NCBI GenBank assembly: GCA_900199505.1
Contig: FZQV01000002.1
Location: 1 to 64,000, forward strand
Source of the DNA: Ruaniaceae bacterium KH17
GTDB taxonomy: Bacteria > Actinomycetota > Actinomycetes > Actinomycetales > Actinomycetaceae
Length of the DNA: 64,000 nt
Reading direction: 5' to 3'
The position numbers and the translations under genes were made by a program. Position 1 is the stretch's first letter, and each line of letters begins with the position of its first letter. Shown here piece after piece: positions 6,816 to 62,750 of this stretch. The notes below the pieces were generated by a model. The model did not search any database. It was not told the origin of the DNA and saw only the letters and a program-made list of their open reading frames with translations.

Positions 6816-8272
<1,457 letters not shown>

Positions 8273-8276
<4 letters not shown>

Positions 8277-10483: not shown

Positions 10484-10552
10484 GGTGCGCTCCTTCGTTC
10501 GGGGGGGCTGTCCCTTCCACCATATCCCCGTGTGGCACGGTACCTTCGTCTG

Positions 10553-46814: not shown

Positions 46815-46839
46815 GTCCCCAATCGCCTCATCTACGAAG

Positions 46840-46944: not shown

Positions 46945-47028
46945 CGCCGCAACGTACTCAGTGAAGATGCAGGAAGTGTTGAAAATCCACGGTCTTCGCT
47001 GGACCGAATACCCAACGATGGGAGAGAT

Positions 47029-48504
47029 ATGGACGAGTCGGCTCGTCTCGTGGAAGCGGCGCTTGCCTACGTGCCCACGGGTTTGTACATCGACGGAACA
47101 TGGCGCTCGACCGAGAACACCTTCGATGTGATCAACCCTGCGACCGGTGCCGTGATTACCGCTATTTCCGACGCAACTCCGGAAGACGGCATGGCCGCGC
47201 TCGATGCGGCCGCTCGTGCGCAGGAAAGTTGGGCGGCGACCGCGCCCCGCGTTCGCGCAGAACTACTGCGCGCGCTGTTCGAGTGTGTCCACGAGTTGCG
47301 TGATGTGTTCGCCACCCTGATGACTCTGGAGATGGGCAAGCCGCTCACCGAGTCCTATGGCGAGGTCACCTACGGCGCGGAGTTTCTGCGCTGGTTCTCT
47401 GAAGAGGCCGTGCGTATTAACGGACGGTATACACCTTCGCCCGAGGGCAACCTGCGCATTCTGACGGTGAAGCGCCCGGTTGGTCCGGCACTGCTCATTA
47501 CGCCCTGGAACTTCCCGCTCGCGATGGCGACGCGGAAGGCGGCCCCGGCGCTTGCGGCCGGCTGCACCACGATTCTCAAGCCCGCCGGGCTCACGCCGCT
47601 CACTTCCCTGGCCTTCGTGAAGGCGGCCGAAGAGGTTGGGTTCCCACCCGGCGTCATCAACATCGTTGCCACGTCGCGCACCGCCCCGATGACCGGTCCG
47701 ATGATCCAGGATCCTCGGCTCCGCAAGCTCTCCTTCACCGGATCGACACCCACGGGCATGGCGCTCATGAAGGAAGCCGCCGGCAATGTGGTGCGTACGT
47801 CCATGGAACTCGGCGGAAACGCCCCATTCATCGTGTTCGAGGATGCCGATCTCGATGCAGCCGTGACGGCCGCGCGACTCACCAAGCTTCGCAACATGGG
47901 TGAGGCGTGCAACGCCGCCAACCGTTTCTATGTGCATTCCTCTGTGGCACAGAAGTTCGGCGAACGCCTCGCGGCCGAACTCTCAGCGCTCCGGGTGGGT
48001 AACGGACTGGCGGAAGGGATCGACGTCGGCCCGATCGTTTCCGATGTGGAACGCGACCGAATCGATGGCATGGTCCAAGCGGCAATCGAAGACGGGGGCA
48101 CCGTGCTTGTGGGTGGAAACCGCGTGGCGGGCCCGGGCTTCTTCTTCGAGCCGACCGTGATCGCGAACCTGCCGGCAACCTCGACTCTCGTTAACGAGGA
48201 GATATTCGGTCCCGTCGCGCCGATTGTCCCCTTCGAGACTGAGGACGAGGTCCTCGGGTACGCCAACAATTCGGATGTGGGCCTCGCTGCCTACGTCCAC
48301 ACGGGCTCGATCGAGCGGGTGCTTCGCATCGCCGAACGGCTCGAGGTCGGAATGATCGGCATCAATTCCGGCACGATCTCCAACGCGGCGGCGCCATTTG
48401 GCGGCGTCAAGCATTCCGGAACCGGCCGTGAGGGTGGCAGCGAAGGTATCGAGGAGTACCTCGAGACCGTCTACGTCGGCTTCCCTGATCCCTTCACCAA
48501 GTAG
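47029..48504 (+). CDS. Succinate-semialdehyde dehydrogenase of the aromatic cluster
   Basis: The 491-residue aldehyde dehydrogenase has E260 (SMELGGNAPF) and catalytic C294 (MGEACNAANRF), in the GabD group. In this cluster it would oxidise succinate semialdehyde, the C4 product of homoprotocatechuate cleavage, to succinate. The cofactor-site motif reads KPAGLTP where KPAE/KPS is common. The frame is open from 46924, but that part covers the TGATATACGAT repeat and lacks family similarity. GGGAGA lies just ahead of the ATG at 47029. It is followed by the monooxygenase gene after 19 bases. Confidence 0.86.
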   Translation: MDESARLVEAALAYVPTGLYIDGTWRSTENTFDVINPATGAVITAISDATPEDGMAALDAAARAQESWAATAPRVRAELLRALFECVHELRDVFATLMTLEMGKPLTESYGEVTYGAEFLRWFSEEAVRINGRYTPSPEGNLRILTVKRPVGPALLITPWNFPLAMATRKAAPALAAGCTTILKPAGLTPLTSLAFVKAAEEVGFPPGVINIVATSRTAPMTGPMIQDPRLRKLSFTGSTPTGMALMKEAAGNVVRTSMELGGNAPFIVFEDADLDAAVTAARLTKLRNMGEACNAANRFYVHSSVAQKFGERLAAELSALRVGNGLAEGIDVGPIVSDVERDRIDGMVQAAIEDGGTVLVGGNRVAGPGFFFEPTVIANLPATSTLVNEEIFGPVAPIVPFETEDEVLGYANNSDVGLAAYVHTGSIERVLRIAERLEVGMIGINSGTISNAAAPFGGVKHSGTGREGGSEGIEEYLETVYVGFPDPFTK

Positions 48505-48523
48505 CAACAACCCAGGAGTCACA

Positions 48524-50410
48524 ATGCAGTTTCACCACCATGGGTACGTCTCGACGGACCCCCGCGTATTTCCCGCCGCCGGCGTGGGCCTGGATCGCCC
48601 CGACGATCTGCCGGACGAGGTCGATGTCCTGATCGTCGGATCCGGTCCGGCCGGAATGATGACGGCAGCCCAGCTCTCGATGTTCCCGAACATCGTGACC
48701 CGAGTGATCGAGCGGCGCGATGGCCGCCTGGTGATCGGCCAGGCCGACGGCGTCCAGTCGCGTGCCGTGGAGACGTTCCAGGCTTTCGGCTTCGCCGACA
48801 GGATCACCTCCGAGGCGTACCGGATCACCCAGACGTGTTTCTGGAAGCCGGATCCGGAGAATCCGCAGAACATCGTTCGGACTGCCGTCACCGAGGACGA
48901 TCCGACCGGGATGAGCGAGTTCCCGCACCTGATTGTGAACCAGGCGCGCGTGCTCGATTACTTCGCGGAGTTCATGGGGAACGCTCCGGGCCGTCAGAAG
49001 GTCGATTACGGTATCGACTTCGTGCGCCTCGAGGTGACCGATGACCCCGATTACCCCGTCCATGTGCGCGTCGTCTACACGGCGGGGGAGCGCAGTGGTG
49101 AGGAGCGAACGATCCGGGCGAAGTTCGTCGTCGGCTCCGATGGCGCGCGCAGCCGTGTGCGTGATGACATCGGCGCCGTACACCTCGGCGCGGTTTCATA
49201 CCACGCGTGGGGCGTGATGGACGTGGTGGCGAACTCGGATTTCCCAGACATTCGGAGCAAGTGCGCGATCCAGTCGGAAGCGGGAAGCATCCTGCACATT
49301 CCGCGGGAGGGAGGCTACCTGTTCCGGATGTATGTGGATCTTGGTGAGGTGGCGGAGGATGACGATCACAAGGTGCGTGACACCCCGATTGAGACGATCA
49401 TCGCCAAGGCGAATGAGATCATCCGACCGTACTCGGTGGATGTGAAGCACGTTGCCTGGTACTCCGTGTACGAAGTGGGGCACCGTGTGACGGACCGATT
49501 CGACGATGTTCCCGAGGCCGAGCGCGGCGAGCGCCAGCCGCGCGTGTTCATCACCGGCGATGCGTGCCACACGCACTCGGCGAAGGCCGGTCAGGGTATG
49601 AACGTCTCGATGCAGGATGGCTTTAACCTCGCGTGGAAGCTCGGGTATGTGCTCGAGGGGCGCAGCCCTCACGAGCTGCTGAACACCTACACGGCCGAGC
49701 GGCAAGTCATCGCGCAGAACCTGATCGATTTTGACCGGGAGTGGTCCGGCATGATGGCGAAGAAGCCCGAGGACTTCGACAATCCTGCAGAGCTCGAAGA
49801 GTTCTACGTGCGCACGTGGGAGTTCCCCTCGGGCTTCATGACGCAGTACCCGCAGGCGATGCTGATCGGGGACATGGCGCACCAGGAGCTCGCGGCGGGA
49901 TTCCCCGTGGGCAAGCGCTTCAAGTCCGCCCCGACGTGGCGGGTCTGCGATGGGAATCCGGTGCACCTTGGGCATTCGCACTTCGCGGATGGTCGCTGGC
50001 GGATCTACGCCTTCGCCGACGGCGCCCCGGCGGGTGCGGAGAGTGAGCTCACCAAGTGGGCGGATTGGCTGGCAACATCGCCCGATTCGCCGGTGGTCTT
50101 CGCGACCTCTGAAGGGGCGGACGCCGACGCGATGTTCGACGTGAAGGTGATCTACCAGCAGCAACACCTCGACGTGAACCCGGTTGCCGCGCCCGCGATC
50201 TTCCGGCCGTTGACGGGCCCATTCCAGTTGCAGAACCTCGAGAAGGTCTTTGCTTCCGGTCCCGACGGTGACATCTTCGAGGAGCGCGAGATCTCCCGTG
50301 ACGGTGCGATCGTGGTGGTCCGGCCCGATATGTATGTGGCGCAGGTGCTCCCGCTCTCGGCGAGGCAGGAGCTAAGCGACTTCTTCAAGGGGTTCCTGCT
50401 CGAGCAGTAG
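48524..50410 (+). CDS. FAD-dependent phenol-hydroxylase-type monooxygenase
   Basis: The 628-residue flavoprotein has the GxGxxG motif VGSGPAGMM (38-46), the DG motif GSDGARS (204-210) and the FAD/ribityl motif GDACHTHSAKAGQGMN (345-360). A C-terminal thioredoxin-like domain is typical of phenol 2-monooxygenase and 3-hydroxybenzoate 4-monooxygenase. AGGAG precedes the ATG at 48524. By analogy with 3-hydroxybenzoate 4-hydroxylation, it could convert 3-hydroxyphenylacetate to 3,4-dihydroxyphenylacetate and so supply HpaD. The substrate is inferred from context only. Confidence 0.87.
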   Translation: MQFHHHGYVSTDPRVFPAAGVGLDRPDDLPDEVDVLIVGSGPAGMMTAAQLSMFPNIVTRVIERRDGRLVIGQADGVQSRAVETFQAFGFADRITSEAYRITQTCFWKPDPENPQNIVRTAVTEDDPTGMSEFPHLIVNQARVLDYFAEFMGNAPGRQKVDYGIDFVRLEVTDDPDYPVHVRVVYTAGERSGEERTIRAKFVVGSDGARSRVRDDIGAVHLGAVSYHAWGVMDVVANSDFPDIRSKCAIQSEAGSILHIPREGGYLFRMYVDLGEVAEDDDHKVRDTPIETIIAKANEIIRPYSVDVKHVAWYSVYEVGHRVTDRFDDVPEAERGERQPRVFITGDACHTHSAKAGQGMNVSMQDGFNLAWKLGYVLEGRSPHELLNTYTAERQVIAQNLIDFDREWSGMMAKKPEDFDNPAELEEFYVRTWEFPSGFMTQYPQAMLIGDMAHQELAAGFPVGKRFKSAPTWRVCDGNPVHLGHSHFADGRWRIYAFADGAPAGAESELTKWADWLATSPDSPVVFATSEGADADAMFDVKVIYQQQHLDVNPVAAPAIFRPLTGPFQLQNLEKVFASGPDGDIFEEREISRDGAIVVVRPDMYVAQVLPLSARQELSDFFKGFLLEQ

Positions 50411-50460: not shown

Positions 50461-52029
50461 TTACTCCCGCTCTGCGAGGGAGAAGGCGTCCACGAGAACG
50501 GCACCATCGCCGGTTGACTGCGCATAAATCTCGAGCCACTCGCACTCGCCCGAATCGGCGCTGACCAGTAGTCGCTCGTAACTGTCATTACCTGTGGTGC
50601 TCGCTGAGGCCAGAACAGTGCCATCGCAACCGCGCACCCCAAACTCACCCGATCCGCCGTCGGGAACGGAAAGGAACGCAGCCGCTTCGTAACGCGTGCC
50701 GGGATCCACCCAGATTCTCTGTGAGACCTCCGCACCAGCTTCCGCGAGCCGCGCGTTCGTGATTCCCGAGAAATGGTTCGAAGCACCATAAATGGTGTCC
50801 TGCTTGACCGCGCCGGTGATCGTCCACGGGGCTCCGATCTCGTCCCCGAGTTGCCACTCGAAGTTGTGATCGGGCACGAGATTCGGCCGCTGGATAGCGC
50901 CGTCGGCATCGATCGTGACCCGCAGGAGATACACGCTGTAGGTGCGCCACTCGGACATCGCATAGTAAATATCGTTGCCCTCGGCCGAAGCGGGGTGGAT
51001 GAACCCGCCATACAGCGACGGGTGGTCGATCGGATCCGCGATCAGAGTCGCATCGGACCACGGTCCCGTCGGCTCGGGCGCGGTGCGCAGGATGAGCCCG
51101 TCCGCCTCCTGTAGCGTGACCATCACCCAGCGGTCGAGATCGCGGTTGTAGATCACGCTGAGCTCGGATGCGGGGGAGTCGAAGAGCGGAGTGACGGCAA
51201 ACTCGTCCGAACCCCACTCGCTCCCATCCCAGTACTCCCACGCATCGCGCTCGAGGATCCGATCGCTCGCGACCCGCGCAAGGCTCACGGTGCCGGCGCG
51301 TCCGTTCGGGGTTCCGAACATGTACAGCGTGTCCGCGTCCCGTTGCGCGAACGCGACCATTTGGAAGGGGTGGGACCAGTCCTCGGTGTTCTCCCAGGTG
51401 GGGCCGTCCTCGTAGTTCCAGGTCTCGCCGAGATCGTCGGAGTATGCGATGCGCGAGAAGTTCGTGTTCCACCGGCCCGGATCGCCCCATTCGTTCACGG
51501 ACATGAACGCCATGTACTGCCGCCCGCCGACGGCGATCGCCGCCGTTGGAATGGTGGTCATCTCGATCCCTGAGAGCTTCATCGAGGGGATCAGTTCACG
51601 GGCCATCCCGTCCTCCTCCTCGATCGCTGAGTCGAACGTGATGCCGTCGCTCGGATTGAGTTGGGAACTCCGCAAGAGCACGTTCGATCGCCACTCCTGC
51701 CCGCCACCGCCATCGCCGCTCCACGTGCCGAAGGTGTCGCCGAATGCCGTGAGGAGGGTGGCGTCGTCGCCCATCCAGAAAATGCCGAGATCCGTGCCCC
51801 GCACCTTCCACCGCGAGACGGTATCGGTGAGCGCATTGGCTCCCGTGATCTTCGAGATCACGACTGACGGCGTGTGGGCAGTGGGTCCATCAACTGGGGG
51901 CGGGGTGGGTGCTGAGGTACCCGGTGGTGTGCTCTCTTCGTCGCTCTCTGGTGTGGGACGAGTGCACATGGTGAGACCTCCTATCAGCGCGAGCGCGCCA
52001 ATTGCCACTCCGGCTCGTCTGAATCGCAT
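50461..52029 (-). CDS. DUF4185 (GH183-type) surface lipoprotein, putative endo-D-arabinanase-like glycosidase
   Basis: A lipoprotein signal with C22 (GGLTMC) and a Pro/Thr linker lead into a five-bladed-propeller-type domain. It has the DUF4185 marks RGTDLGIFW (77-85) and LLTAFGDTFG (92-101), then FSRIAYSDDLGETW and WVMVTL strands. The last 140 residues form a carbohydrate-binding-like beta-sandwich. DUF4185 founded GH183, whose characterised members are endo-acting on D-arabinan. The protein would act outside the cell and release oligosaccharides for the adjacent ABC importer. The specificity is not proven here. It is divergent from the GH172 gene. Confidence 0.8.
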   Translation of the reverse strand: MRFRRAGVAIGALALIGGLTMCTRPTPESDEESTPPGTSAPTPPPVDGPTAHTPSVVISKITGANALTDTVSRWKVRGTDLGIFWMGDDATLLTAFGDTFGTWSGDGGGGQEWRSNVLLRSSQLNPSDGITFDSAIEEEDGMARELIPSMKLSGIEMTTIPTAAIAVGGRQYMAFMSVNEWGDPGRWNTNFSRIAYSDDLGETWNYEDGPTWENTEDWSHPFQMVAFAQRDADTLYMFGTPNGRAGTVSLARVASDRILERDAWEYWDGSEWGSDEFAVTPLFDSPASELSVIYNRDLDRWVMVTLQEADGLILRTAPEPTGPWSDATLIADPIDHPSLYGGFIHPASAEGNDIYYAMSEWRTYSVYLLRVTIDADGAIQRPNLVPDHNFEWQLGDEIGAPWTITGAVKQDTIYGASNHFSGITNARLAEAGAEVSQRIWVDPGTRYEAAAFLSVPDGGSGEFGVRGCDGTVLASASTTGNDSYERLLVSADSGECEWLEIYAQSTGDGAVLVDAFSLAERE

Positions 52030-52074
52030 GTTCGCCTCGTCTCCGAACGCCGTTGCTAGTGTCGCGAGTTGTGA

Positions 52075-52086
52075 GGAAACGATACC
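52075..52086. promoter_or_regulatory. LacI-type operator A, DUF4185 side
   Basis: GGAAACGATACC matches the GGAAACGATTTC core of operator B at 10 of 12 positions. On the minus strand it overlaps a possible -10, TATCGT, preceded at 18 bases by CTGACA, in front of the DUF4185 gene. Confidence 0.55.
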
Positions 52087-52151
52087 CGGTATTAGACCGA
52101 GATGTCAGCGGCTCTGAGCGGAACATATCCCAAATCGTTATAAATAGAAGG

Positions 52152-52197
52152 TTGACGGTCGTAAGCCACGTCACATATTCTGGGGAAACGATTTCTC
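52152..52197 (+). promoter_or_regulatory. Promoter and LacI-type operator B of the GH172/ABC operon
   Basis: The -35 TTGACG (52152-52157) and -10 CATATT (52174-52179) are 16 bases apart. The operator GGAAACGATTTCTC (52184-52197) covers the expected start of transcription. Repressor binding here would block initiation. Confidence 0.6.
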
Positions 52198-52231
52198 ATG
52201 AAGTACCGTGAGAGGACATTCAAGGAAGAAT

Positions 52232-53311
52232 ATGATCGGCAACATCACCCGTCCACCGCAGTATCAGTCGCGTGCCATTACGGCGGAGAACTTCGATGGT
52301 GCAAAGTCTGGGGGAGGCCGTGCGAGCAACGGTTTCTCCGAGCGCGCCGCGTCCCGTCTTGGGCCTGGCTGGAAGGTGTCGCCGTGTATTGAGATCGCCC
52401 CGGGGGAGACGGCCCTGATCGCGGACATCACGGGCCCCGGCATCATCCAGCACATCTGGATGACCACCCATTTCTCGCTCTGGCGAAACCTCATCCTGCG
52501 GATGTACTGGGAGGGCGAGAGCGAACCTGCGGTCGAGGTGCCCTATGGCGACTTCTTCTGCAACGGGTGGAACGTGTTCTCACAGGTGAGTTCGCAGATG
52601 GTTGCCGCGAACCCCCACGGAGGGTTCAACACGTACTGGCAGATGCCCTTCACCTCACATGCCAAGATCACCGTGGAGAACGTGGGATACGAGCCAGCGA
52701 ATCTCTACTACCAGGTCGATTACGGCCTCGGCGAGATCCCCGCGGACTCGCTTCACTTCCACGCCCAGTGGCGGCGCAGCCGCTTCGTTGAGGACGGGGT
52801 CCACACGATCCTCGACACCATCACGGGCAGTGGCCGCTACGTGGGCACATACCTCGCGTGGCAGAGCAACTCGCCGGGCTGGTGGGGTGAAGGAGAGCTG
52901 AAGTTCTTCCTCGATGGCGATGACGAGTACCCCACCATCTGTGGCACCGGTACGGAGGACTACTTCGGAGGTGCGTGGAACTTCGACATCCCGGGCAGGG
53001 GCTACACGGAGTTCACCGCGCCATATCTGGGTCTCAACCAGGTGCTACCGCCGGATGGTCTCTACCGTAGCCAGCAGCGCTTCGGGATGTACCGCTGGCA
53101 CCTTGATGACGCGATTTCGTTCTTCAACGACTTGCGCATCACTGTTCAGGCCCTTGGAATCGGCCCCGGCCAAGGTAACGGCCTACCGCACCGCTACCGC
53201 ATCCTTAAGGACGATCTCGCCTCCACTGCGATCTTCTATCTTGACCGGCCGAGCCTTCCCACCGAGGAGCGGCCGCACACCCCGGATCTCCTCGAACTCG
53301 AGGTGGAGTAG
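52232..53311 (+). CDS. DUF2961 family glycoside hydrolase (GH172), cytosolic
   Basis: The 359-residue protein is a two-jelly-roll DUF2961 member. It has SRLGPGWKVSPCIEIAPGETALIADITGPG (41-70), EVPYGDFF (102-109), GEGELKFFLDGDDEYP (219-234) and the acidic GTGTEDYFGGAWNF (238-251), with E242 a candidate catalytic residue. Characterised GH172 enzymes act on alpha-D-fructofuranosides or alpha-D-arabinofuranosides in exo fashion. No signal peptide is present, so it would trim imported oligosaccharides. The ATG at 52232 follows AAGGAAG. It is the first gene of the operon. Confidence 0.9.
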   Translation: MIGNITRPPQYQSRAITAENFDGAKSGGGRASNGFSERAASRLGPGWKVSPCIEIAPGETALIADITGPGIIQHIWMTTHFSLWRNLILRMYWEGESEPAVEVPYGDFFCNGWNVFSQVSSQMVAANPHGGFNTYWQMPFTSHAKITVENVGYEPANLYYQVDYGLGEIPADSLHFHAQWRRSRFVEDGVHTILDTITGSGRYVGTYLAWQSNSPGWWGEGELKFFLDGDDEYPTICGTGTEDYFGGAWNFDIPGRGYTEFTAPYLGLNQVLPPDGLYRSQQRFGMYRWHLDDAISFFNDLRITVQALGIGPGQGNGLPHRYRILKDDLASTAIFYLDRPSLPTEERPHTPDLLELEVE

Positions 53312-53333
53312 TGACGTTCCATCTCATTGCTGG

Positions 53334-53388
53334 TGACACGTACGGGCAGTGCCGTGTCAGTTCCGCACCGACATGTGCTGCCCATGTC
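53334..53388 (+). promoter_or_regulatory. Tandem hairpins between the GH172 and binding-protein genes
   Basis: TGACACG (53334-53340) pairs with CGTGTCA (53353-53359), and GACATG (53370-53375) pairs with CATGTC (53383-53388). They fill the 146-bp gap. They may be mRNA-processing structures or a second regulatory site. Confidence 0.4.
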
Positions 53389-53457
53389 AGCCACGTCCTC
53401 CGGGCGTGCATCTTCTGAGGGCGACGGCGTCCTCGATACACAGGGAAAGGAAACACG

Positions 53458-54870
53458 ATGAGGAAGCACAATAGGCGCCTCTCAGTGGCACTCACCGCAG
53501 GCACGATGGCTGCGGCGCTCGTGCTGGCAGGCTGTGGAAGCGGTACGCCCGGCGAACCGGCTCCCGGCAACACAGGGGACCCAACGACGGGCGAAGAAGC
53601 TACTGACGGCGCCGGCGAAGGTAGCGGCGACGCCGTCGAAATCGAGTTCTGGCACCGCACGTTCACCCCCGTGGAGAACGAGTGGTACGCACAGGTTGTC
53701 AAGGACTTCAACGCGGCGCAGTCCGAGGTTGTCGTTGTTGACCAGGAAGTCCCGGCGGATGCATGGGACCAGAAGATGACGGCAGCGCAGGCTGCGGGCA
53801 AGGCTCCCGACATCTACACCCACTCCGGCATGATGGGCGACGCCGTTCGGCTCGGCCAGGTGCTTCCGTTGAAGGGCCTCGTCTCCGACGAGTCGCTCGC
53901 CAGCATCAACGACCCGGCGCGCGCCGTGTCCTCGATCGACGGCGAACTCTACGGCTACCCGCTCCTCGTTGAGCCGCAGACCGTGCTGTTCTGGAACAAG
54001 GACATGTTTGCGGCAGCCGGGCTTGATCCGGAGAAGCCACCGACATCGTGGGACGAACTCTACGAGTACTGTGACGCTCTCAAAGAAACGCTCTCCGATG
54101 GCCAGTTCTGCATCACCACCGCTCAGGACGCAGTGACGTTTGCATGGTCCACGGTGGGCCAGCAGTATGGGATCGCCGGGCACCTGCCGATCAGCGATGA
54201 CTGGACCACGGCGAAGGCTTCGGGCGTTCAGGGCTATGTTGACCTGCTGAACTTCTACAAGACCCTATACGACAACGACTACATTCCGAAGCAGGCGCTC
54301 GGTGCCTATGTTGAGGCCGCCCCATTCGGCCAGGAGAAGTCCGCGATGATGACCTCTGGTTCGTGGGCGCTCAGCGAGCTCGGCTCGGACTACCCGGACG
54401 TGATGGCCGTGACCGGCGTGGGACCGTTCGTCTCGTTCAATGGTGCTCCGGACACTACCACCTCCACGATCGGCAACTTCAAGTGGGTCATCGACGCCAA
54501 GTCTGACGCCCCGGAGGCCGCTGCCGCATTCATGGAGTGGGCACTCGGTGGCGATCCTGAGGTGCTCGTGCCGTTCTTCGTGGCGACGCAGTTCTCCAAG
54601 GCTCCCGCGCGCGACGTCGTGGCCGAGGCCGTCAATGCGACACCGGAAGCGGCGAACGCGTCATGGTCCAACGTGATCTCCGATCAGGTCGTTCCGTACA
54701 CCACGGCCGAGCCGCTCTACCCGTGGGATATCTCGCTGGCTATGGGCACGGCGATGGAGAAGGCGATGACCGGTGTTTCCTCGGTTGAGGACGCGCTGGA
54801 CGAGGCCAATTCCGAGATCCAGAAGGTCATCGACCGCGAGGATCTCGCTTCGAAGGCCCCGGCTCAGTAA
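53458..54870 (+). CDS. Sugar ABC transporter substrate-binding lipoprotein (family 1)
   Basis: The signal peptide ends in LAGC (lipid Cys at 26). The mature domain has EIEFWHRTFTPVENEWY, KAPDIYTHSGM, and the PLLVEPQTVLFWNKDMFAAAGL stretch of family 1 sugar-binding proteins. It hands oligosaccharides to the two permeases downstream. AAAGGA precedes the ATG. Its place between GH172 and the permeases suggests furanoside oligosaccharides as ligands. Confidence 0.92.
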   Translation: MRKHNRRLSVALTAGTMAAALVLAGCGSGTPGEPAPGNTGDPTTGEEATDGAGEGSGDAVEIEFWHRTFTPVENEWYAQVVKDFNAAQSEVVVVDQEVPADAWDQKMTAAQAAGKAPDIYTHSGMMGDAVRLGQVLPLKGLVSDESLASINDPARAVSSIDGELYGYPLLVEPQTVLFWNKDMFAAAGLDPEKPPTSWDELYEYCDALKETLSDGQFCITTAQDAVTFAWSTVGQQYGIAGHLPISDDWTTAKASGVQGYVDLLNFYKTLYDNDYIPKQALGAYVEAAPFGQEKSAMMTSGSWALSELGSDYPDVMAVTGVGPFVSFNGAPDTTTSTIGNFKWVIDAKSDAPEAAAAFMEWALGGDPEVLVPFFVATQFSKAPARDVVAEAVNATPEAANASWSNVISDQVVPYTTAEPLYPWDISLAMGTAMEKAMTGVSSVEDALDEANSEIQKVIDREDLASKAPAQ

Positions 54871-54881
54871 CTCCGCAATCA

Positions 54882-54917
54882 GTTTCTGGCGGGCGGAAGG
54901 GCCCGCCCGCCAGAAAC
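54882..54917 (+). promoter_or_regulatory. Intra-operon hairpin after the sugar-binding-protein gene
   Basis: A perfect 15-bp stem (54882-54896 and 54903-54917) with a six-base loop lies 12 bases past the stop. It is the same arrangement as at 22255-22288 and 40609-40636. Confidence 0.65.
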
Positions 54918-54942
54918 CACGAAACTCACATGGAGGTGAATC

Positions 54943-55842
54943 GTGACTGTCCCCGCGACGAGGAAGGGGCGGCGCCGACCCGATGACGGCTTCGCGCATC
55001 TCATGCTCGCTCCGCTGTTGATTATGCTCGGAATCTTCGTGATCTGGCCGACGATACGCGCGATATACCTGAGCTTCTTCAACTGGAGCTTCTATCAAGA
55101 GTCCACGTTCGTTGGCATCAAGAACTTCCGCGATGTGCTTACGGATTCGAACTTCTGGAACTCGATTCGGCTCGGCCTGCAGTTCGTCCTGATGACTGTG
55201 CCGCTACAACTCGTTATCGCATTCTGCTTCGCGTCCCTAGCTTCATCAGTCGCAGCGAAGCTCGCCTCGATCCTCAAGGTCTCGATCTATATCCCAACGA
55301 TCATCTCCGGCGTGATCACCTCCGTGATCTTCGCCCTGATCTACAACTACTCCGGTGGCCTTCTCAACGCGATCGTGGGCATCTTTGGCGTGCCCAATCA
55401 GGCCTGGCTCGCCGATCCCCGGTGGGCGTTGATTGCGATCGCCGTGCCCGCCGTTTGGCTTGGAACAGGCCTCATGTCGCTGATCATGCTCGCCGGCATG
55501 GTGGACATCCCCGAGTCCTTCTATGAAGCGGCATCTATTGAAGGCGCCAACTGGTTCCAGAAGACGATCTACATCACGATCCCGCAGCTAAAGAACATCT
55601 TCCTGTACCTCCTCGTGGTCACCACCATCGGCGCAATTCAGCAGTTCGAGTTGCCGCTGATCATGACCGGCGGTGGCCCCATGCGGCAGACCGAACTGCC
55701 GAACCTGTTCATCTTCAACCACTTCCGCGGCGATGCGTATGTGGGGTACTCCATCGCGGCGGCACTCATGCTTGCGGTAGTTCTCGGAAGCATCTCCGCC
55801 GTGATCTTCCGGGTCGTGAACTCAGAGAAGTTGGTGGACTGA
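54943..55842 (+). CDS. Sugar ABC transporter permease (MalF type)
   Basis: The 299-residue protein has six helices and the CUT1 signature: LLIMLGIFVIWPTIRAIYLSFF at the start and the EAA loop ESFYEAASIEGANWFQKTIYITIPQL. It begins at a GTG 72 bases after the binding-protein stop, and is followed one base later by the partner permease. No ATPase gene is in the operon, so a shared MsmK/UgpC-type ATPase elsewhere is expected. Confidence 0.94.
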   Translation: MTVPATRKGRRRPDDGFAHLMLAPLLIMLGIFVIWPTIRAIYLSFFNWSFYQESTFVGIKNFRDVLTDSNFWNSIRLGLQFVLMTVPLQLVIAFCFASLASSVAAKLASILKVSIYIPTIISGVITSVIFALIYNYSGGLLNAIVGIFGVPNQAWLADPRWALIAIAVPAVWLGTGLMSLIMLAGMVDIPESFYEAASIEGANWFQKTIYITIPQLKNIFLYLLVVTTIGAIQQFELPLIMTGGGPMRQTELPNLFIFNHFRGDAYVGYSIAAALMLAVVLGSISAVIFRVVNSEKLVD

Positions 55843-55843
55843 C

Positions 55844-56701
55844 ATGACGTCACCAGTTGTGCGGAGGAAGCGGACGCGTTCGCCGAAGGAGATCTTCTTC
55901 ATCATCGCAAAGGGAATCGGGGCCCTGATCTTCCTCCTGGTGGCGCTGTTCCCGCTTGCATGGATGGTGATTGCGGGCTTCAAGACAAAGACGGAAGTGG
56001 TACGCACACCCTTCCAGTTCTTTCCAGACGTGTGGAATCCCCAGAACTACATCGACATCCTGAACGATCCTGCTTTCTTGCGCACCCTCGCGGTGACCGG
56101 TCTCGGTGCGATCCTGTTCACGGCGCTGAGCCTCACGCTGAACTCGTTGGGTGCGTATGCGTTCGCCCGATTGGACTTCCGATTCAAGCGCACGCTCTGG
56201 GTGATCGTGATCAGCACGATGTTCATCCCGGGCATGACCATTCTGCTGACCTCGTTCATCGTGGTCACGCAGCTGCGCATGCTCGATACGCTCGCGGTGC
56301 TTGTGCTGCCCGGCGCGGCCTCAGCGGCGCACGTCTTCTTCGTGCGGCAGTTCTACCTGAACGTGCCGCGCAGCCTCGAGGAAGCTGCCATGCTGGACGG
56401 CTGTTCGCGACTCCAGATCTTCCTGAAGCTGTTCGTTCCGCTCTCGAAGGCGCCCTTCGTCGTCGTCGGCGTGACCTCGTTCATGGCGTTCTGGAATGCC
56501 TATGTGTGGCCGGTCATGACGATCACCTCGCGCGATCTGTACCAGGTGCAGCAGTACTTGGCGACCTTCCGCTCGGAGCGCTCAACCGAGCTCTCGATGC
56601 TGATGGCGGGCTCGGCGCTCGCGGCCGCTCCCGTGATCATTTTGTTCATCGTGTTCCAAAAGCAGATCATCGGAAACATCAAGATGGCGGGCCTGAAATA
56701 A
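55844..56701 (+). CDS. Sugar ABC transporter permease (MalG type)
   Basis: The 285-residue CUT1 permease has FPLAWMVIAGFKTKTE near the N terminus and the EAA loop RSLEEAAMLDGCSRLQIFLKLFVPLSK. It pairs with the MalF-type protein to form the import channel. Translation begins one base after the preceding stop. Confidence 0.94.
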   Translation: MTSPVVRRKRTRSPKEIFFIIAKGIGALIFLLVALFPLAWMVIAGFKTKTEVVRTPFQFFPDVWNPQNYIDILNDPAFLRTLAVTGLGAILFTALSLTLNSLGAYAFARLDFRFKRTLWVIVISTMFIPGMTILLTSFIVVTQLRMLDTLAVLVLPGAASAAHVFFVRQFYLNVPRSLEEAAMLDGCSRLQIFLKLFVPLSKAPFVVVGVTSFMAFWNAYVWPVMTITSRDLYQVQQYLATFRSERSTELSMLMAGSALAAAPVIILFIVFQKQIIGNIKMAGLK

Positions 56702-56727
56702 TCCACCTCAGCAGTGAGGAGATGGCT

Positions 56728-57726
56728 ATGGGAGAGCGCACGACAGTCGTTGATGTTGCGCGTCGCGCCAGCGTCTCGCCATCAACTGTGTCTCGGGTCT
56801 TTAATGGCGTCACCAATGTGGATCCGGACCTGGTGAAGCGGGTGCGGAAGGCGGCGGCGGAGCTGTCGTATGTCCCGAATCCGTATGGAAGGGCCCTGCG
56901 GCGGCAACGCAGTGAGAGCTGGACGGTGATCGTTGCCGATCTGCAGAATCCGTTCTACACGCAACTCGTTGCCGTGATCGAGTCGATCGCGAATGAGCAA
57001 GGCTTCTCGGTGCTGATTTGCGTCTCGGATGAGGATCTCGAGAAGGAGCGGCGGCATATCCAGGTGGCGCTGTCGCAGCACATCGCGGGTGTGGTGATCT
57101 CGCCCGCGTCCGAGTCGCAGACCGATCTCGCGCCGCTCACTCGTGCGGGAATCCCCGTGGTTGTGGTGGATCGGCAAGCGTTCGGGTATTCCGGTGCTTC
57201 GGTCATGACGGACAACCAGCAGGTTGGTGTCCTCGCGGCGCAGCACCTCCTCGAGCGTGGCTATCGGAGCCCCGCGATGGTGACGTCGGCGATCGATATC
57301 TGGCCCGAACACGGGCGCGTGCGCGGGTTCGTCGAGACGTTCCGCAGCGCAGGAATCGAGATACCGGAGTCGCGGATCTATCCGATCGATGTGCACGTGG
57401 GCGCGAGCCAAGACCGTATGCGGCAGATGCTCGCCGAGAATCCCGAACTCGACGTCCTCTACACCGTCAACGGGCCACTGACGGCGGCGGTCTTCACGTT
57501 CCTCGAGACGGAGGGAATCGTCATCCCGGAAGATGTGGCGCTACTCGGGGTGGATGATAACGAGTGGACGTCTATGGTGACTCCTGCCGTAACAGTGGTG
57601 CGCCAGCCAGTCTCCGAGGTGGGCCGAATTGCCGCCGAGTTGCTGAGCCAGCCCGAGGGGCTGGCGCGGCTTGCCGGCGCCCGTGTGGTGCTCCCTCCGG
57701 AACTCGTGGTTCGTCGCTCTACCTAG
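56728..57726 (+). CDS. LacI-family repressor of the glycan locus
   Basis: The 332-residue regulator has the HTH TVVDVARRASVSPSTVSRVFNG (residues 5-26), the hinge with YVPNPYGRALRRQRS and a sugar-binding domain. GAGGAG is spaced six bases from the ATG at 56728, which is preferred over the ATG at 56722. Three operators with the core GAAACGATT lie before the DUF4185, GH172 and GH116 genes, the expected targets. The stop codon overlaps that of the convergent GH116 gene by two bases within CTAG. Confidence 0.92.
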   Translation: MGERTTVVDVARRASVSPSTVSRVFNGVTNVDPDLVKRVRKAAAELSYVPNPYGRALRRQRSESWTVIVADLQNPFYTQLVAVIESIANEQGFSVLICVSDEDLEKERRHIQVALSQHIAGVVISPASESQTDLAPLTRAGIPVVVVDRQAFGYSGASVMTDNQQVGVLAAQHLLERGYRSPAMVTSAIDIWPEHGRVRGFVETFRSAGIEIPESRIYPIDVHVGASQDRMRQMLAENPELDVLYTVNGPLTAAVFTFLETEGIVIPEDVALLGVDDNEWTSMVTPAVTVVRQPVSEVGRIAAELLSQPEGLARLAGARVVLPPELVVRRST

Positions 57727-60290
57727 GTGGACCAGTTGTCCCCCGCACCAATCGGCGCGTGCGGAACCCGGAGTTCGCGACCGTCCAACCACGCCGCGTG
57801 TAGCTCGAGAGTTCCGCCGGCTACTTCGATGGAGAGCTGGCCGCTGGCAAGAGTGACCTCACCCCATGCCTCGCCTGTCACGAAGGGGAACCTGATCTCA
57901 TCTGACGTGAAGTGCTCGCGCGCCGGAGCGATCCGCAGCTCGTGAGTGAGGGCGTCGTAATCCCAGCCGGTCATCGCGCGCAGGATCGTCCAGCCGGACA
58001 TCCCGCGCGCGTAGTAGTCGCCGCATTCGATCTCGTTGAACGGGTTGCGGCGGGTGCCATCGTGGCGTCCGAGCGCACCGTCAATGATTGCGGCTGCCTC
58101 GTCCTGGAGACCCGCGCGCACGCAACTTGCCGCTACTTGGTACTCGACGCCGGACCACACCTCATCCGCATACCGCGTGGGCGTCTCGGGCCTGCCCCCA
58201 TGCGGCCAAGTGGCCATGAGCAGGCCCGTGTCATCGCCGTCGGCATAGACGCGAAAGGGGTGGTCGAGAACGTGGAAGCCGCGCCGTAAATTGTGCCGCA
58301 CGATGCTGGCGAGGGCGGTGCGGACGCGTTCGGGATCGAGCACCGGGCCGAGGCCGAGCTCGTCGGCCCACCATTGCCCGATCAGCTGATCGGCGAGGCA
58401 CCCCTCGCCCCACTGGAACTCGCGTGGATCGCCCTCGTCCAGCGCCTGCCGGTAGTACTCCCCGGTCCACATGATCTCCTCATATGAGGCTTGGGCCCGG
58501 GAAAAGAGGGATGCCGCCCGCTCTGCTTCGGGAGCGTCGTCGGCGAGGAGTGCGAGTTGCTCATAGGCGCGCAGGGCGGCCAGCCAGAGCGTGCCCATGA
58601 AAGGATTCACGCCGGCCAGATCGATGTCATGGGTCGAGGGCTGGATGCCGCGCAGAGTGCCGTCGCCATGGGTGACCCAGCGCCTCTCGATGTGGCGCAT
58701 GAGGCGCTGCAGGTGCGGCCAGAAACTGAGTGCCTCATCCAACGCCCAGCCTGCCCGCACCTCGCGGTAGGTCTTGAGGATGGTTCCGAGCATGCCATCG
58801 AGCGCGGGCTGCTCGGGGCCGTAGATCCGGCCCTCCCAGAGCTGGGCGAGGTAGGTGGGGGCGATCACGCGGTGCGGGATCGAGCCATCGGGTGCTTGCA
58901 TCACCTCGAACTCGGTGCGGCGCATCGATTGCTCAAGGGTGGGGAAGAGGTAGGCGAGTGCGTGCTCGTAGTTCCACACGTGCGTGCAGTTGAGGGGGCA
59001 GGAGCCGCCCGAGCGGGCGCCGTGGCTCCCGGTCGAGGCTCCGGCCGCGCCCTCGAAGCCGAAAAACTCGCCATCGGCTGTGCGGAAGCAGGTGGGAGAG
59101 CGCAGTGGGATCGCCTGAGCTGTGAAGAACTCTCCGAGCGGCGCGCGAAGGGTGCTCGTCTCAAAGATCTCCGCCCAGCGTGTGGTGGCTTCGCGGTGGG
59201 AATCGAGACCGGTACGGAGTTCGGTGAGAATATCCCGGACCGTGGCGTATCGCGTGGCGTAGTGGTTGCCGAGCCAGAACTTCGAGGAGCCCCATGCCGG
59301 GTTAGCGGGGCCGAACTGGTTGTAGTTCACGTACCGGTTGGGGAAGTACCACGCGATCGCGTAGCGCAGGGTGGTGCTCTCGCCGGGCGCTAGTTCCCAG
59401 AAGTCAGCGAGGCCGCCGCACCAGGTGGAGCCGGGGGCGCTCGCCTGGGCGCGGCCCGAGGGTGCGTCGCCTTGCGGATCGGGCCGCTGATCGCCGGGGA
59501 CGAGTGGCTGAGTGACACCGGGCGTGCGGGCGCCGAGAAACTGGATGAACTGGTGCGGGTCCGTCCACTGTGGGAACACGTGGGAGAGCGGGTTCGCTGA
59601 GGCGAGGGCCACCTGGCCGGCGTGTGGATAATCGTGCTCGAGCGAGAGATTCTCACCGATCAATGTGGTCCAGGGGCCTCTCTCGACCCGATTGGTGTTG
59701 CCGCCGTAGCCGGGGTGGTGGACGCCGTCGGGGTTGACGATGCCATCGGCACCCACAAGATTCTGCAGGCTCGCGCCGAGCCAGCCGTGAAGGGTCTGCT
59801 CTCCCTCGTTGCGCAGTGTGAACTCGAAAATCGCCGCCGGTATCCCGCTGCGATCCGGATCATGCGGGTGTAGGGGAGTGAAGGCGGTGAGGTCGACGGC
59901 GATCGGCAGGCTTGGGTCGCGGAAGGCCACGTGGGCGATGGGGTAGGTGGCGGTCATGCGCGTTTCGGCGAAGCCCCCGATCTCGCCGACGAGCTCGCGT
60001 TGCCACTGCGGGATCACGTGGTCGTTGACAAGAGGCGCGAGTCGCTCGGGGCGCGGTTCAGCGGCGGCGTTACTTTGGAGGACCCGGATCGTGTCCAGGG
60101 GCGGTTCGATCTGACAGACACGCAGTGCGAAGAAGCTTCCGGGGGCGTCGCCGAGGTGGTTGACATTGTTGGTGATCTGCCATTGCCGCAGGCCGCCGTC
60201 CGTGCCGATCGAGACATTGCCCGTGCCGATCCCGCCCAGCGGGAAGGCGACGGCGGGCTGTGACTCCGGGGTGTATTCGGAACTGCTCAT
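57723..60290 (-). CDS. GH116 family glycoside hydrolase, cytosolic
   Basis: The 855-residue protein has the N-terminal beta-sandwich (AVAFPLGGIGTGNVSIGTDG) and the (alpha/alpha)6 domain of GH116. CTHVWNYEHALAYLFP carries the probable nucleophile Glu, and GIQPSTHDIDLAGVNPF the region of the acid/base Asp. Known GH116 enzymes are beta-glucosidases, beta-xylosidases or glucosylceramidases. No signal peptide is seen. The start at 60290 is used; the frame is open to 60308, over a few bases of the operator side. An operator-like site lies 19 bases upstream, so it belongs to the LacI regulon of the locus. Confidence 0.9.
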   Translation of the reverse strand: MSSSEYTPESQPAVAFPLGGIGTGNVSIGTDGGLRQWQITNNVNHLGDAPGSFFALRVCQIEPPLDTIRVLQSNAAAEPRPERLAPLVNDHVIPQWQRELVGEIGGFAETRMTATYPIAHVAFRDPSLPIAVDLTAFTPLHPHDPDRSGIPAAIFEFTLRNEGEQTLHGWLGASLQNLVGADGIVNPDGVHHPGYGGNTNRVERGPWTTLIGENLSLEHDYPHAGQVALASANPLSHVFPQWTDPHQFIQFLGARTPGVTQPLVPGDQRPDPQGDAPSGRAQASAPGSTWCGGLADFWELAPGESTTLRYAIAWYFPNRYVNYNQFGPANPAWGSSKFWLGNHYATRYATVRDILTELRTGLDSHREATTRWAEIFETSTLRAPLGEFFTAQAIPLRSPTCFRTADGEFFGFEGAAGASTGSHGARSGGSCPLNCTHVWNYEHALAYLFPTLEQSMRRTEFEVMQAPDGSIPHRVIAPTYLAQLWEGRIYGPEQPALDGMLGTILKTYREVRAGWALDEALSFWPHLQRLMRHIERRWVTHGDGTLRGIQPSTHDIDLAGVNPFMGTLWLAALRAYEQLALLADDAPEAERAASLFSRAQASYEEIMWTGEYYRQALDEGDPREFQWGEGCLADQLIGQWWADELGLGPVLDPERVRTALASIVRHNLRRGFHVLDHPFRVYADGDDTGLLMATWPHGGRPETPTRYADEVWSGVEYQVAASCVRAGLQDEAAAIIDGALGRHDGTRRNPFNEIECGDYYARGMSGWTILRAMTGWDYDALTHELRIAPAREHFTSDEIRFPFVTGEAWGEVTLASGQLSIEVAGGTLELHAAWLDGRELRVPHAPIGAGDNWST

Positions 60291-60308
60291 CTGCCACCTT
60301 TGGTCCAA

Positions 60309-60320
60309 GAAAACGATTCC
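60309..60320. promoter_or_regulatory. LacI-type operator C, GH116 side
   Basis: GAAAACGATTCC shares the AAACGATT core with operators A and B and lies just upstream of the GH116 start. Confidence 0.5.
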
Positions 60321-60509
60321 TGAGAGGTCCAGACTAGCAACCCGAGGGCGTATTCGGGAGGGTTGGTTAACATTCCGGCGAGTGCGGTGATGATGCGCCG
60401 GAATCGGATGCTTCTGGAGCCCGTTTCCGGCAAGAATCCGCGGTTTTTTGACGTCGATCGGGATAAACTGATCGCGGAGTATTTGGTGTTTCGGCGCGAG
60501 GGGATGTCT

Positions 60510-61118
60510 ATGAATTCGCAGGGCTCATTGGACGTGGCGGTCAACGTTGCAGAGAAGGCAATCGCGAGTGAAATCGCGGGGGTCACGGCTGCCACGCAGG
60601 GGATAGGCGATCAGTTGAGCGCCGCGCTCGAGCTACTGCATGGAACGACCGGCAAGATCATCGTTTCCGGGATTGGGAAGCCGGGACATATCGGCAAGAA
60701 GATCGCCGCCACGATGGCGTCGACGGGTTCGCCCGCGTTTTTCGTCCATTCGACGGAGGCGCTCCATGGCGACTCCGGCATGGCCGTGCCGGGCGATAGC
60801 GCCATCCTGCTCTCGAACTCCGGAACCACCGCAGAAGTGTGTGCCTTCGCGTCGATGCTGAAGAGCTGGGGCATCCCGATCGTGGCGATGACCAAGAGCA
60901 AGGATTCGCCGCTTGGCAAGCTCGCAGACGTGACTCTCGAGCTGAAGTTCGGCGCTGAGGCGGATCCGCTCGGACTCGCCCCGACGACGTCGACCACCCT
61001 CAAGCTGATCCTCGGGGACGCGCTGGCGGTGGGTTTGATGCAGCTCTCGGGGTTCACCCCGGAGGAGTTTGGTGCCCGCCACCCGGGCGGCGCCCTCGGC
61101 CAGCAACTGACGAACTAG
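60510..61118 (+). CDS. SIS-domain sugar-phosphate isomerase (KdsD/GutQ-like, without CBS domains)
   Basis: The 202-residue protein has the arabinose-5-phosphate isomerase pattern: SGIGKPGHIGKKIAATMAS (53-71), ALHGDSGM (84-91), LSNSGTTAEV (101-110), LAPTTSTT and the HPGGALGQ end. KdsD interconverts ribulose-5-phosphate and arabinose-5-phosphate, but KdsD has two extra CBS domains that are absent here. Actinobacteria do not make KDO, so a catabolic role is likely. AGGGG is six bases before the ATG at 60510. It leads the operon with dhaK- and dhaL-like genes. Confidence 0.85.
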   Translation: MNSQGSLDVAVNVAEKAIASEIAGVTAATQGIGDQLSAALELLHGTTGKIIVSGIGKPGHIGKKIAATMASTGSPAFFVHSTEALHGDSGMAVPGDSAILLSNSGTTAEVCAFASMLKSWGIPIVAMTKSKDSPLGKLADVTLELKFGAEADPLGLAPTTSTTLKLILGDALAVGLMQLSGFTPEEFGARHPGGALGQQLTN

Positions 61119-61134
61119 AAAAGAGTTGACGAAA

Positions 61135-62136
61135 ATGCGGAAGATCATCAATGCGCCAGAGGCGTTCGTTGACGAGTTTGTCGAGGGAATCCTCCTGGCT
61201 CATCCAGACCTTGTGAAGACACCAGGAGCGGATCTCCGGGTGCTCGTTCGGGCGGATGCGCCACAAGCTGGAAAAGTCGGAATCGTCACCGGCGGCGGTT
61301 CTGGGCATCTGCCGCTGTTCAAGGGCTATGTTGGCCAGGGGCTCTGCTCGGGAGTCGCCATCGGAAATGTCTTTAGCTCGCCCTCGTCGGAGCAGATCTA
61401 TGAGGCCACCAAGGCCGTCGATGGCGGAGCGGGCGTGCTGTACCTTTACGGAAACTACGGCGGTGACGTCTTCAACTTTGATCTGGCTGCAGATCTCGCC
61501 GATCTCGACGGTATTCAGACCAAGACGGTGCTTGGCCGCGACGATGTGGCAAGTCAGCCAAATGAGCGGAAGCTCGATCGCCGTGGCGTCGCCGGAATCA
61601 TCTTCGCGTACAAGGCAGCCGGCGCGGCTGCGGATCGTGGGGACTCACTCGATCAGGTTGCCACCATTGCCGAGGACATCGTTGAGCACACGGCAACGAT
61701 GGGTGTTGGCCTCGCTCCGACGATTCTCCCGACCACAGGTCAGCCGAGCTTCGACTTGCCTGAGGGTGAAGTCGAGATCGGAATCGGCATCCACGGTGAA
61801 CCAGGGATTTCGAGGGGTGCGCTCGCAACAGCCGACGAGATCGCGGAGCAGATTGTGGAGGCACTGATCACCGATCTCGGTCTCACCCAGGGCGCCCGTG
61901 TTGCCGTCCTCGTGAACGGTCTCGGAGCGACTCCACTTGAAGAGCTTTATCTGCTCTACCGCCGCGCACACCAGATCCTCACCGATCGCGGCATAGTGAT
62001 CGACAAGCGGTACATCGGCGAGTACGCCACCAGCCTCGAGATGGCTGGCGCCTCGATTTCGTTGCTCGAACTGAACGACGATCGCCTCGCGCTCCTACAG
62101 GCTCCCGCGAAGTCCCCATTCTTCGAGGAGTCATAG
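61135..62136 (+). CDS. DhaK-like subunit of a dihydroxyacetone-kinase-family enzyme
   Basis: The 333-residue protein has the DhaK fold with VTGGGSGHLPLFKGYVG (51-67), NYGGDVFNF (107-115) and the substrate-binding histidine H220 in GIGIHGEPG, to which a ketose carbonyl becomes covalently bound. Kinases of this family phosphorylate dihydroxyacetone, tetruloses such as erythrulose, or apulose-like sugars. The TTG at 61126 is an alternative start. It precedes the DhaL-like gene with a one-base overlap. Confidence 0.9.
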   Translation: MRKIINAPEAFVDEFVEGILLAHPDLVKTPGADLRVLVRADAPQAGKVGIVTGGGSGHLPLFKGYVGQGLCSGVAIGNVFSSPSSEQIYEATKAVDGGAGVLYLYGNYGGDVFNFDLAADLADLDGIQTKTVLGRDDVASQPNERKLDRRGVAGIIFAYKAAGAAADRGDSLDQVATIAEDIVEHTATMGVGLAPTILPTTGQPSFDLPEGEVEIGIGIHGEPGISRGALATADEIAEQIVEALITDLGLTQGARVAVLVNGLGATPLEELYLLYRRAHQILTDRGIVIDKRYIGEYATSLEMAGASISLLELNDDRLALLQAPAKSPFFEES

Positions 62137-62750
62137 TGGATGGCGCCGTTCTGAAGCAACGCATCTGTGATGCACTCACGGTCCTGATCGAGTCCGAAAA
62201 CGAGCTTCGCGATCTCGACCAGGTACTTGGTGATGGCGACTTAGGTATCACTATCGCTGCCGGGTCGAAGGCTGTTATCGCCGCACTCGAGCAGTTGCCC
62301 GCTGATACGTCACCGCCAGACATCGCGCGGGCAAGCGCGAAGGCGTTCGCCAACGCGAACCCATCGACGATGGCGGCTCTCGTTGCCGGAGGTCTCTTGG
62401 CCGGCTCGAAGACGTGGGCTGGCGTCACGGACGTGACGGTCGCACATGCGCAGGCCTTCGTGGAAGCGGCTACGGCGGGTATCTCGCAACGCGGCAGAGC
62501 TCAGGTGGGGGACAAGACGATTGTGGACGGCCTCGATGCCGTCGCGACGGCTCTCGTGGGCGTCTCTGATGCGACAGGGGCAACAGACCGTGCGGTTGCG
62601 GCTGCGGCGGATGCCGTAGAGCGAACGCGGGGGCTCCAGTCTCAGCGTGGCCGGGCCTCGTGGTTGCAAGAACGAAGCGTCGGCCACGCCGATCCAGGAT
62701 CCGTTGCGCTGGCGCGCTTCTTGGAAGCTTGGCGGGATTCTGCGAACTAG
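62136..62750 (+). CDS. DhaL-like nucleotide-binding subunit
   Basis: The 204-residue DhaL-type helical barrel has the Mg-nucleotide motif DLDQVLGDGDLG (26-37) and the closing GHADPGSVALARFLEAW. D28, D33 and D35 are the metal ligands; the histidine usual in GDGDHG is leucine here. With the preceding DhaK-like protein it forms a kinase. No DhaM (PTS) gene is visible, so ATP may be the donor. The stop overlaps the convergent stop of the DapA-like gene within CTAG. Confidence 0.86.
   Translation: MDGAVLKQRICDALTVLIESENELRDLDQVLGDGDLGITIAAGSKAVIAALEQLPADTSPPDIARASAKAFANANPSTMAALVAGGLLAGSKTWAGVTDVTVAHAQAFVEAATAGISQRGRAQVGDKTIVDGLDAVATALVGVSDATGATDRAVAAAADAVERTRGLQSQRGRASWLQERSVGHADPGSVALARFLEAWRDSAN

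Follow-up and report, generated by a model that had tools for sequence, protein, structure and literature searches.

A predicted Microbacterium-type D-arabinan locus with a candidate phosphate-first back end for D-arabinose in Ruaniaceae bacterium KH17

The D-arabinan locus of Microbacterium arabinogalactanolyticum, described by Shimokawa et al. 2023 (PMC10509167), combines GH183, GH172, and GH116 glycosidases with an ATP-binding cassette (ABC) importer whose binding protein is of the SBP_bac_8 type. Its exo-acting enzymes are signal-less and are placed inside the cell, a putative isomerase and kinase are present, and D-arabinose and mycobacterial wall extract induce the GH183, GH116, and binding-protein genes strongly or significantly and the GH172 gene mildly. 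Al-Jourani et al. 2023 (PMC10115798) likewise describe GH183 and GH172 D-arabinan enzymes in PUL42 of Dysgonomonas gadei, a host belonging to the Bacteroidota. We analyzed bases 1 to 64,000 (hereafter the window) of contig FZQV01000002.1 (188,820 bases in all) from Ruaniaceae bacterium KH17, whose genome comprises 2,724,385 bases in 72 contigs at an estimated completeness of 100%, and find there a locus that has in common with the Microbacterium one all three glycosidase families, the importer with its type of binding protein, the signal-less exo enzymes, and an actinobacterial host. An initial annotation of this DNA saw a new layout in the grouping of GH183, GH172, GH116, and an ABC importer in an actinobacterium; that view is corrected here, because Shimokawa et al. 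2023 describe the same layout. By its enzymes the locus is an ordinary member of the published kind, and it is the back end that departs from the usual: an SIS-domain protein encoded in the window, undescribed in the initial annotation, and a ribokinase-like PfkB kinase and a FucU mutarotase encoded beyond it. Taken as a whole, and judged from sequence comparison, the system is with moderate confidence a D-arabinan locus of the Microbacterium type joined to a back end that would phosphorylate D-arabinose before isomerizing it.

Among solved structures, the three glycosidases are closest to the D-arabinan enzymes of M. arabinogalactanolyticum; the Protein Data Bank (PDB) entries 8hhv, 8ic1, 8ic8, and 8ic6/8ic7 can be recognized as those of Shimokawa et al. 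2023 from their names and from the substitution of Asn for Asp51 in 8ic1. The GH183 protein matches the endo-alpha-D-arabinanase entries 8hhv and 8ic1 over residues 50-504 (E 6.4e-109 and 2.7e-108), and it keeps the catalytic Asp80 and Asp98 and the essential Glu289 (EndoMA1 Asp33, the nucleophile, Asp51, the acid/base, and Glu243) as well as the sugar-binding residues Arg244, Trp181, Pro184, Leu339, and Tyr340 (EndoMA1 Arg198, Trp138, Pro141, Leu292, and Tyr293). The GH116 protein matches the exo-beta-D-arabinofuranosidase entries 8ic6/8ic7 (E 3.9e-112) and, in an alignment of 22 sequences from both clades, keeps the catalytic Glu431 and Asp557 of ExoMA2 together with the recognition residues His446 and Arg483, a pair that differs from beta-glucosidases (PMC10509167). 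An apparent loss of the GH116 nucleophile, seen in a phmmer alignment and with 10 sequences picked by their start motif, was discarded, since the residue aligns once the protein's own clade is included in the 22. The GH172 protein matches the exo-alpha-D-arabinofuranosidase 8ic8 (E 2.2e-140) and has Asn, not Gly, at position 258, which corresponds to ExoMA1 Asn253, a residue reported to exclude fructofuranose (PMC10509167). The family does include an enzyme for alpha-D-fructofuranosides or difructose anhydrides (PDB 7v1v, E 8e-32), which might suggest that the locus is aimed at such other furanosides, but the window protein is far nearer 8ic8, and for its partners GH183 and GH116, too, the closest structures are D-arabinan enzymes; on the nearest structures and Asn258 we reject fructofuranoside use as very improbable.

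The locus is thus very probably a D-arabinan utilization system of the EndoMA/ExoMA type. The proposal that polymer is cut outside, imported by the ABC system, and finished inside is supported by homology to characterized enzymes and by the kept active-site residues. Signal peptides and lipoboxes were judged by eye from the N-termini of the translations. Both GH172 and GH116 lack a signal peptide, as first proposed, and the binding protein carries a plain lipobox, LVLAGC. The description of the DUF4185 (GH183) protein as a lipoprotein is likely rather than certain: its hydrophobic N-terminus ends in an LTMC lipobox, but Met at position -1 is unusual. The importer consists of two permeases and a binding protein, and it probably borrows an ATPase, because none was seen on inspection among the window's open reading frames (ORFs) of at least 150 amino acids.

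We compared the locus with others in a table of 118 loci (20 and 80 picked by GH172, 17 by SIS, and the window's own), the 80 being the best of 564 stretches that encode a relative in a GH172-alignment scan of named genomes; a few genomes may occur twice, L036 and L079 seeming to be one such pair. The grouping goes beyond chance: selection by GH172 alone gave 100 loci, and in 22 of them GH183 is present along with a near importer relative, defined by a permease sharing at least 50% identity with the window's; GH116 is there too in 14 of the 22. The other 78 lack GH183 with such an importer, and GH172 of this type therefore also occurs in other settings. In the tabulated loci, relatives of the binding protein beside GH183/GH172 are 40-58% identical to it, relatives of permease 1 47-70%, and relatives of permease 2 54-77%, and several Microbacterium loci among the best 80 of the 564 carry the full set. 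The window differs from the M. arabinogalactanolyticum locus in having one GH183 gene instead of four, its GH116 belongs to a sister clade, with 34% identity to the Microbacterium psychrotolerans enzyme (L066), and SIS stands beside GH116, while other Microbacterium loci (L067-L069) have a FucI-type isomerase and an FGGY kinase. Some GH172 loci encode large proteins that are candidate furanoside-active enzymes, namely L033:5581-9096(-), of 1171 amino acids, and L080:2397-4595(+), of 732 amino acids, both DUF6259, and L035:9442-13071(-), of 1209 amino acids; a related importer accompanies those of L033 and L035, where no GH116 match was seen.

The distribution of GH172 and the host's own wall bear on where the polymer comes from. 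In a draw of 297 genomes of the order, taken to be the one that also supplied the SIS counts given below, 47 have a GH172 match (E up to 1e-20), and the only other match in the host's own family is weak (E 4.9e-24); with the family otherwise nearly devoid of GH172, acquisition by transfer is indicated. A search of the host genome for Pfam Arabinose_trans (Emb arabinosyltransferase) gave no match, with the control Corynebacterium glutamicum positive; other organisms are therefore the most likely source of the polymer. Recycling had been among the uses initially suggested, and mycobacteria keep GH183 genes, possibly for remodeling (PMC10509167), but with Emb absent and with GH172 so scarce in the family we reject the idea that these enzymes remodel or recycle the host's own wall as hardly credible.

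Turning to the back end, the nearest solved relatives of the SIS protein are arabinose-5-phosphate isomerases and related phosphosugar isomerases (PDB 5uqi, 2xhz, and 3etn). It has the SIS fold and the kept catalytic residues in common with KdsD, GutQ, KpsF, and the short relatives 5uqi and 3etn, and differs from this group in being an SIS domain alone, encoded beside glycan-degrading genes. In KdsD numbering it keeps His88, Glu111, and Glu152 (aligned with 2xhz) and His193 (aligned with 5uqi and 3etn), and it has Lys at position 59, where 2xhz itself has Ala; we take Lys59, His88, Glu111, Glu152, and His193 of KdsD to be catalytic-type residues. A host of this kind would not be expected to synthesize Kdo.

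Most comparable loci have a FucI/FGGY route, in which the free sugar is isomerized first, unlike the phosphate-first order. Of the 118 loci, 29 hold GH183 and a near importer relative; 17 of them have FucI and/or FGGY (16 FucI, 10 both), 9 have SIS (the window included), 3 have neither (L033, L080, and L116), and none has FucI and SIS together, shares that mean little because 6 of the 9 SIS loci were picked by SIS. Among the 22 that GH172 alone had selected, FucI and/or FGGY occurs in 17 and SIS in 2, and 3 have none of these. The usual pair of FucI-type isomerase and FGGY kinase was not found in the window locus, and FucI, present in 16 of the 29 loci, is not universal.

Of the 297 genomes of the order, 12 encode a close SIS relative (E below 1e-50), and 11 of the 12, the window's own included, also hold GH172, the twelfth being a 69%-complete genome (Fisher p 6e-9 with 47/297 GH172 genomes, relatedness ignored). 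In the other 11 SIS genomes, a PfkB gene adjoins SIS in every case, and in 8 of them a single stretch of 19-20 kb also includes GH183 and the importer. Phylogenetically, the window SIS groups with its order relatives, the L109 protein, and proteins of family f44, apart from eight distant SIS proteins encoded near FGGY kinases (support 99/97). At class level SIS is found in 5 of 394 genomes, three of them of f44, and within f44 in 5 of 61. Three f44 loci (L190, L191, and L192; genomes of 1.3-2.2 Mb) combine SIS-PfkB with an RbsD-type protein, whose gene directly follows PfkB in L191 and L192, and L190 adds a ribose-type ABC importer and a LacI match; window-type glycosidases are absent within the 12-19 kb examined at these loci, which form a possible cluster for free D-arabinose. 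L109 (Lederbergia citri, Bacillota) has PfkB, LacI-like, SIS, and two GH172 genes close together at 3861-11053. Two further loci, L045 (genome G245) and L052 (genome G175), have a near importer relative, a GH172, and (partly in view) a GH116 at least 50% identical to the window's, with neither an SIS nor a FucI match in the 20 kb examined.

The host PfkB, whose best solved relatives are ribokinases, is the only strong match to the locus kinase in the genome (E 1.2e-73; next best 7.2e-10), and in a kinase tree it groups with the SIS-adjacent kinases (support 95/90), five other host kinases falling outside that group on very long branches. Two bases after it lies a gene for a FucU-type mutarotase, an apt neighbor because L-fucose and D-arabinose share the same ring configuration. 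The kinase has the PfkB fold in common with RbsK and differs from it in having Met instead of Asn at position 14 and Pro at position 100. Ribokinases can convert D-arabinose to arabinose 5-phosphate, though poorly (PMC11591822, PMC9604405). With the A98G change, Escherichia coli ribokinase has a 15-fold higher kcat on D-arabinose; simulations showed no bond between Asn14 and arabinose, a point that the authors did not regard as decisive (PMC9604405).

We find Gly at position 98 (E. coli ribokinase numbering) in 13 of 14 SIS-linked kinases, L166 being the exception that keeps Ala98, and in none of 26 controls, all of which have Ala98, while Met at position 14 occurs in 14/14 and 0/26, respectively. 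The controls comprise 23 kinases of the order plus 3 whose loci lack SIS; L219 and L221 were dropped for want of the trimming motif, and the retained L214 aligns badly at position 14. Outside the 14 are the L163 kinase, cut by a contig end, and the window genome's own. In 13 of the 14 the kinase gene is directly beside SIS, and in L109 a LacI gene lies between them.

As to regulation, the window contains three copies of an operator-like site, GRAAACGATWYC: two in the GH183/GH172 intergenic stretch and one in that of GH116/SIS. Even with one mismatch allowed, there is no other copy in the 64 kb. Its core AAACGATTTCT is found upstream of GH172 in L045 and L052. No site was seen in 14 of 18 other loci checked, even with the shorter core AACGATT, and a scan for CG-centered palindromes gave nothing shared between promoters. 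The downstream stretch, L003, has one site at one mismatch (3728-3739, inside the TctC gene; 0.45 expected).

From these comparisons we consider a phosphate-first D-arabinose back end in this genome rather probable, and the following points weigh against it. The SIS protein scores below the cut-offs of both named isomerase models, with 195.6 bits versus 505 for KdsD (E 1.3e-57; positions 14-202 matched of a 328-position profile) and 194.6 versus 203.7 bits for kpsF (positions 1-153 of 268), and PfkB falls just below that of the ribokinase model TIGR02152 (294.8 versus 299.65 bits). PfkB and FucU are not in the locus, lying 6.5 kb past SIS behind a DapA-TctA-TctC-GntR block, and no operator-like site is found upstream of PfkB; the count of three sites against 0.05 expected from shuffling flatters the motif, because the pattern was read by eye from the very sites it finds. 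The window genome's PfkB, with its Met14 and Pro100, keeps Ala98, which counts against strong D-arabinose activity in this strain. The L109 kinase (Met14, Gly98), 36% identical to the window genome's, stands apart from the other SIS-linked kinases in the tree. Independent events are few, because all 8 further loci with SIS and GH183 belong to a single family, in which they are spread over three genera, and SIS-PfkB pairs without glycosidases nearby mean that the pair is no proof of D-arabinan use. Finally, DhaK-DhaL genes stand next to SIS here and in none of the other 117 tabulated loci; as a conserved part of D-arabinan loci they are unsupported, their nearest relatives being in other clusters.

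These genes and the host's other kinases give rise to two different accounts of the back end. In the first, the D-arabinan locus is the same, but an unrecognized isomerase elsewhere acts first, an FGGY kinase (the host genome has seven, all on other contigs) adds the phosphate, and SIS-DhaK-DhaL serves another sugar, for example tetrulose. The three nearest DhaK relatives (77-81% identical) do lie in clusters without an SIS match and, by eye, with a ribose-type ABC importer (in two of the three also with a hydroxyisobutyrate-dehydrogenase-like gene), and the window pair may have another substrate because there is a second DhaK-DhaL-like pair near contig 79 kb. No fucose-isomerase-type gene was found in the host, however: Fucose_iso_C has no match in the genome, with a positive control in E. 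coli and with the AraA and RhaA families not searched, and a search without control for the divergent isomerase of the loci gave no match either. Since, moreover, the SIS belongs to the clade found beside PfkB in D-arabinan loci, and a site like those of GH183/GH172 lies between GH116 and SIS, we regard this account as unlikely. In the second account, phosphorylation comes first, but in this strain SIS would work with DhaK-DhaL as its kinase and not with the remote PfkB, in keeping with DhaK starting 7 bases after SIS and abutting DhaL and with the distance and Ala98 of PfkB. Dak kinases bind ketones or ketoses and not aldoses such as D-arabinose, and DhaK is missing from every other SIS locus in the table of 118; we accordingly rate this account as quite improbable.

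In the favored reading of a D-arabinan locus with SIS and PfkB, GH183 outside the cell would cut mycobacterial-type arabinogalactan or lipoarabinomannan into oligosaccharides, which the ABC importer would take in, and GH172 and GH116 would remove alpha-linked and beta-linked D-arabinofuranose, respectively, from their ends, the gene set being controlled by LacI; up to this point the steps are inferred from homology and kept residues. FucU would then supply the right ring form of free D-arabinose, PfkB would convert it to D-arabinose 5-phosphate, and SIS would isomerize this to D-ribulose 5-phosphate, which would feed the pentose phosphate pathway.

The ORFs and Pfam matches confirm the genes and families that the initial annotation gave for 50461-60308, a span that proves too short, as the unit extends at least to 62750 with SIS, DhaK, and DhaL (Table 1). 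GH116 starts with TTG, an alternative ATG start being possible at 60290, and the true SIS start is probably downstream of 60363, as homology begins near 60513. At 45375-50410, adjoining the D-arabinan locus, we recognize by eye a fumarylacetoacetate-hydrolase-like protein, an aldehyde dehydrogenase, and an FAD monooxygenase, which suggests breakdown of aromatic compounds. Between DhaL and PfkB, contig positions 62747-67503 encode a DapA-like aldolase, TctA, TctC, and, by eye, a GntR regulator, and the block looks as if a sugar-acid uptake unit had been inserted there.

Table 1. Predicted features of the D-arabinan locus and its back end (window positions, except where contig positions are indicated)
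Feature	Position	Strand	Evidence
Exported GH183 (DUF4185) endo-D-arabinanase; extra EndoMA1-like domain at the C-terminus	50461..52029	-	Pfam E 1.4e-105; PDB 8hhv/8ic1
Operator-like site GRAAACGATWYC	52075..52086	.	Pattern derived from the sites found
Operator-like site GRAAACGATWYC, between GH183 and GH172	52184..52195	.	Same pattern
GH172 exo-alpha-D-arabinofuranosidase, no signal peptide seen	52208..53311	+	Pfam DUF2961 E 2.7e-84; PDB 8ic8
ABC importer substrate-binding lipoprotein	53458..54870	+	Pfam SBP_bac_1 / SBP_bac_8
ABC importer permease 1	54943..55842	+	Pfam BPD_transp_1
ABC importer permease 2	55844..56701	+	Pfam BPD_transp_1
LacI-family regulator	56716..57726	+	Pfam LacI, Peripla_BP
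GH116 exo-beta-D-arabinofuranosidase, no signal peptide seen	57723..60308	-	Pfam Glyco_hydr_116N and DUF608; PDB 8ic6/8ic7
Operator-like site between GH116 and SIS	60309..60320	.	GRAAACGATWYC pattern
SIS-domain sugar-phosphate isomerase, arabinose-5-phosphate isomerase type, SIS domain alone	60363..61118	+	Pfam SIS only
DhaK-like ketose kinase subunit	61126..62136	+	Pfam Dak1 E 8.1e-115
DhaL-like kinase subunit	62136..62750	+	Pfam Dak2 E 6.6e-36
Ribokinase-like PfkB, outside the window	contig 67613-68530		Match to locus kinase E 1.2e-73
FucU mutarotase, outside the window	contig 68533-68952		PDB 3mvk E 3.3e-29

Beyond this strain, the odds lean slightly toward a wider pattern, in which several actinobacterial lineages, and perhaps one of the Bacillota, would use a dedicated D-arabinose 5-kinase and a stand-alone arabinose-5-phosphate isomerase for D-arabinan, and small-genome actinobacteria would use the same pair with an RbsD-type pyranase (in one case with a ribose-type importer) for free D-arabinose. 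The kinase would be a PfkB protein with Met14 and mostly Gly98, the latter matching the A98G substitution engineered into E. coli ribokinase. We found no description of a phosphate-first D-arabinose route in the open-licence literature. If the pattern holds, arabinose 5-phosphate, known from Kdo synthesis, becomes an intermediate of carbon catabolism. The back end, if read correctly, would provide a second natural way of D-arabinose catabolism, explain why bacteria that lack Kdo have arabinose-5-phosphate isomerases, and offer natural kinases for the production of arabinose 5-phosphate, a task to which engineers have adapted ribokinase. For the organism itself, the locus suggests that mycobacterial-type D-arabinan serves as food for an actinobacterium that seemingly makes none of its own.

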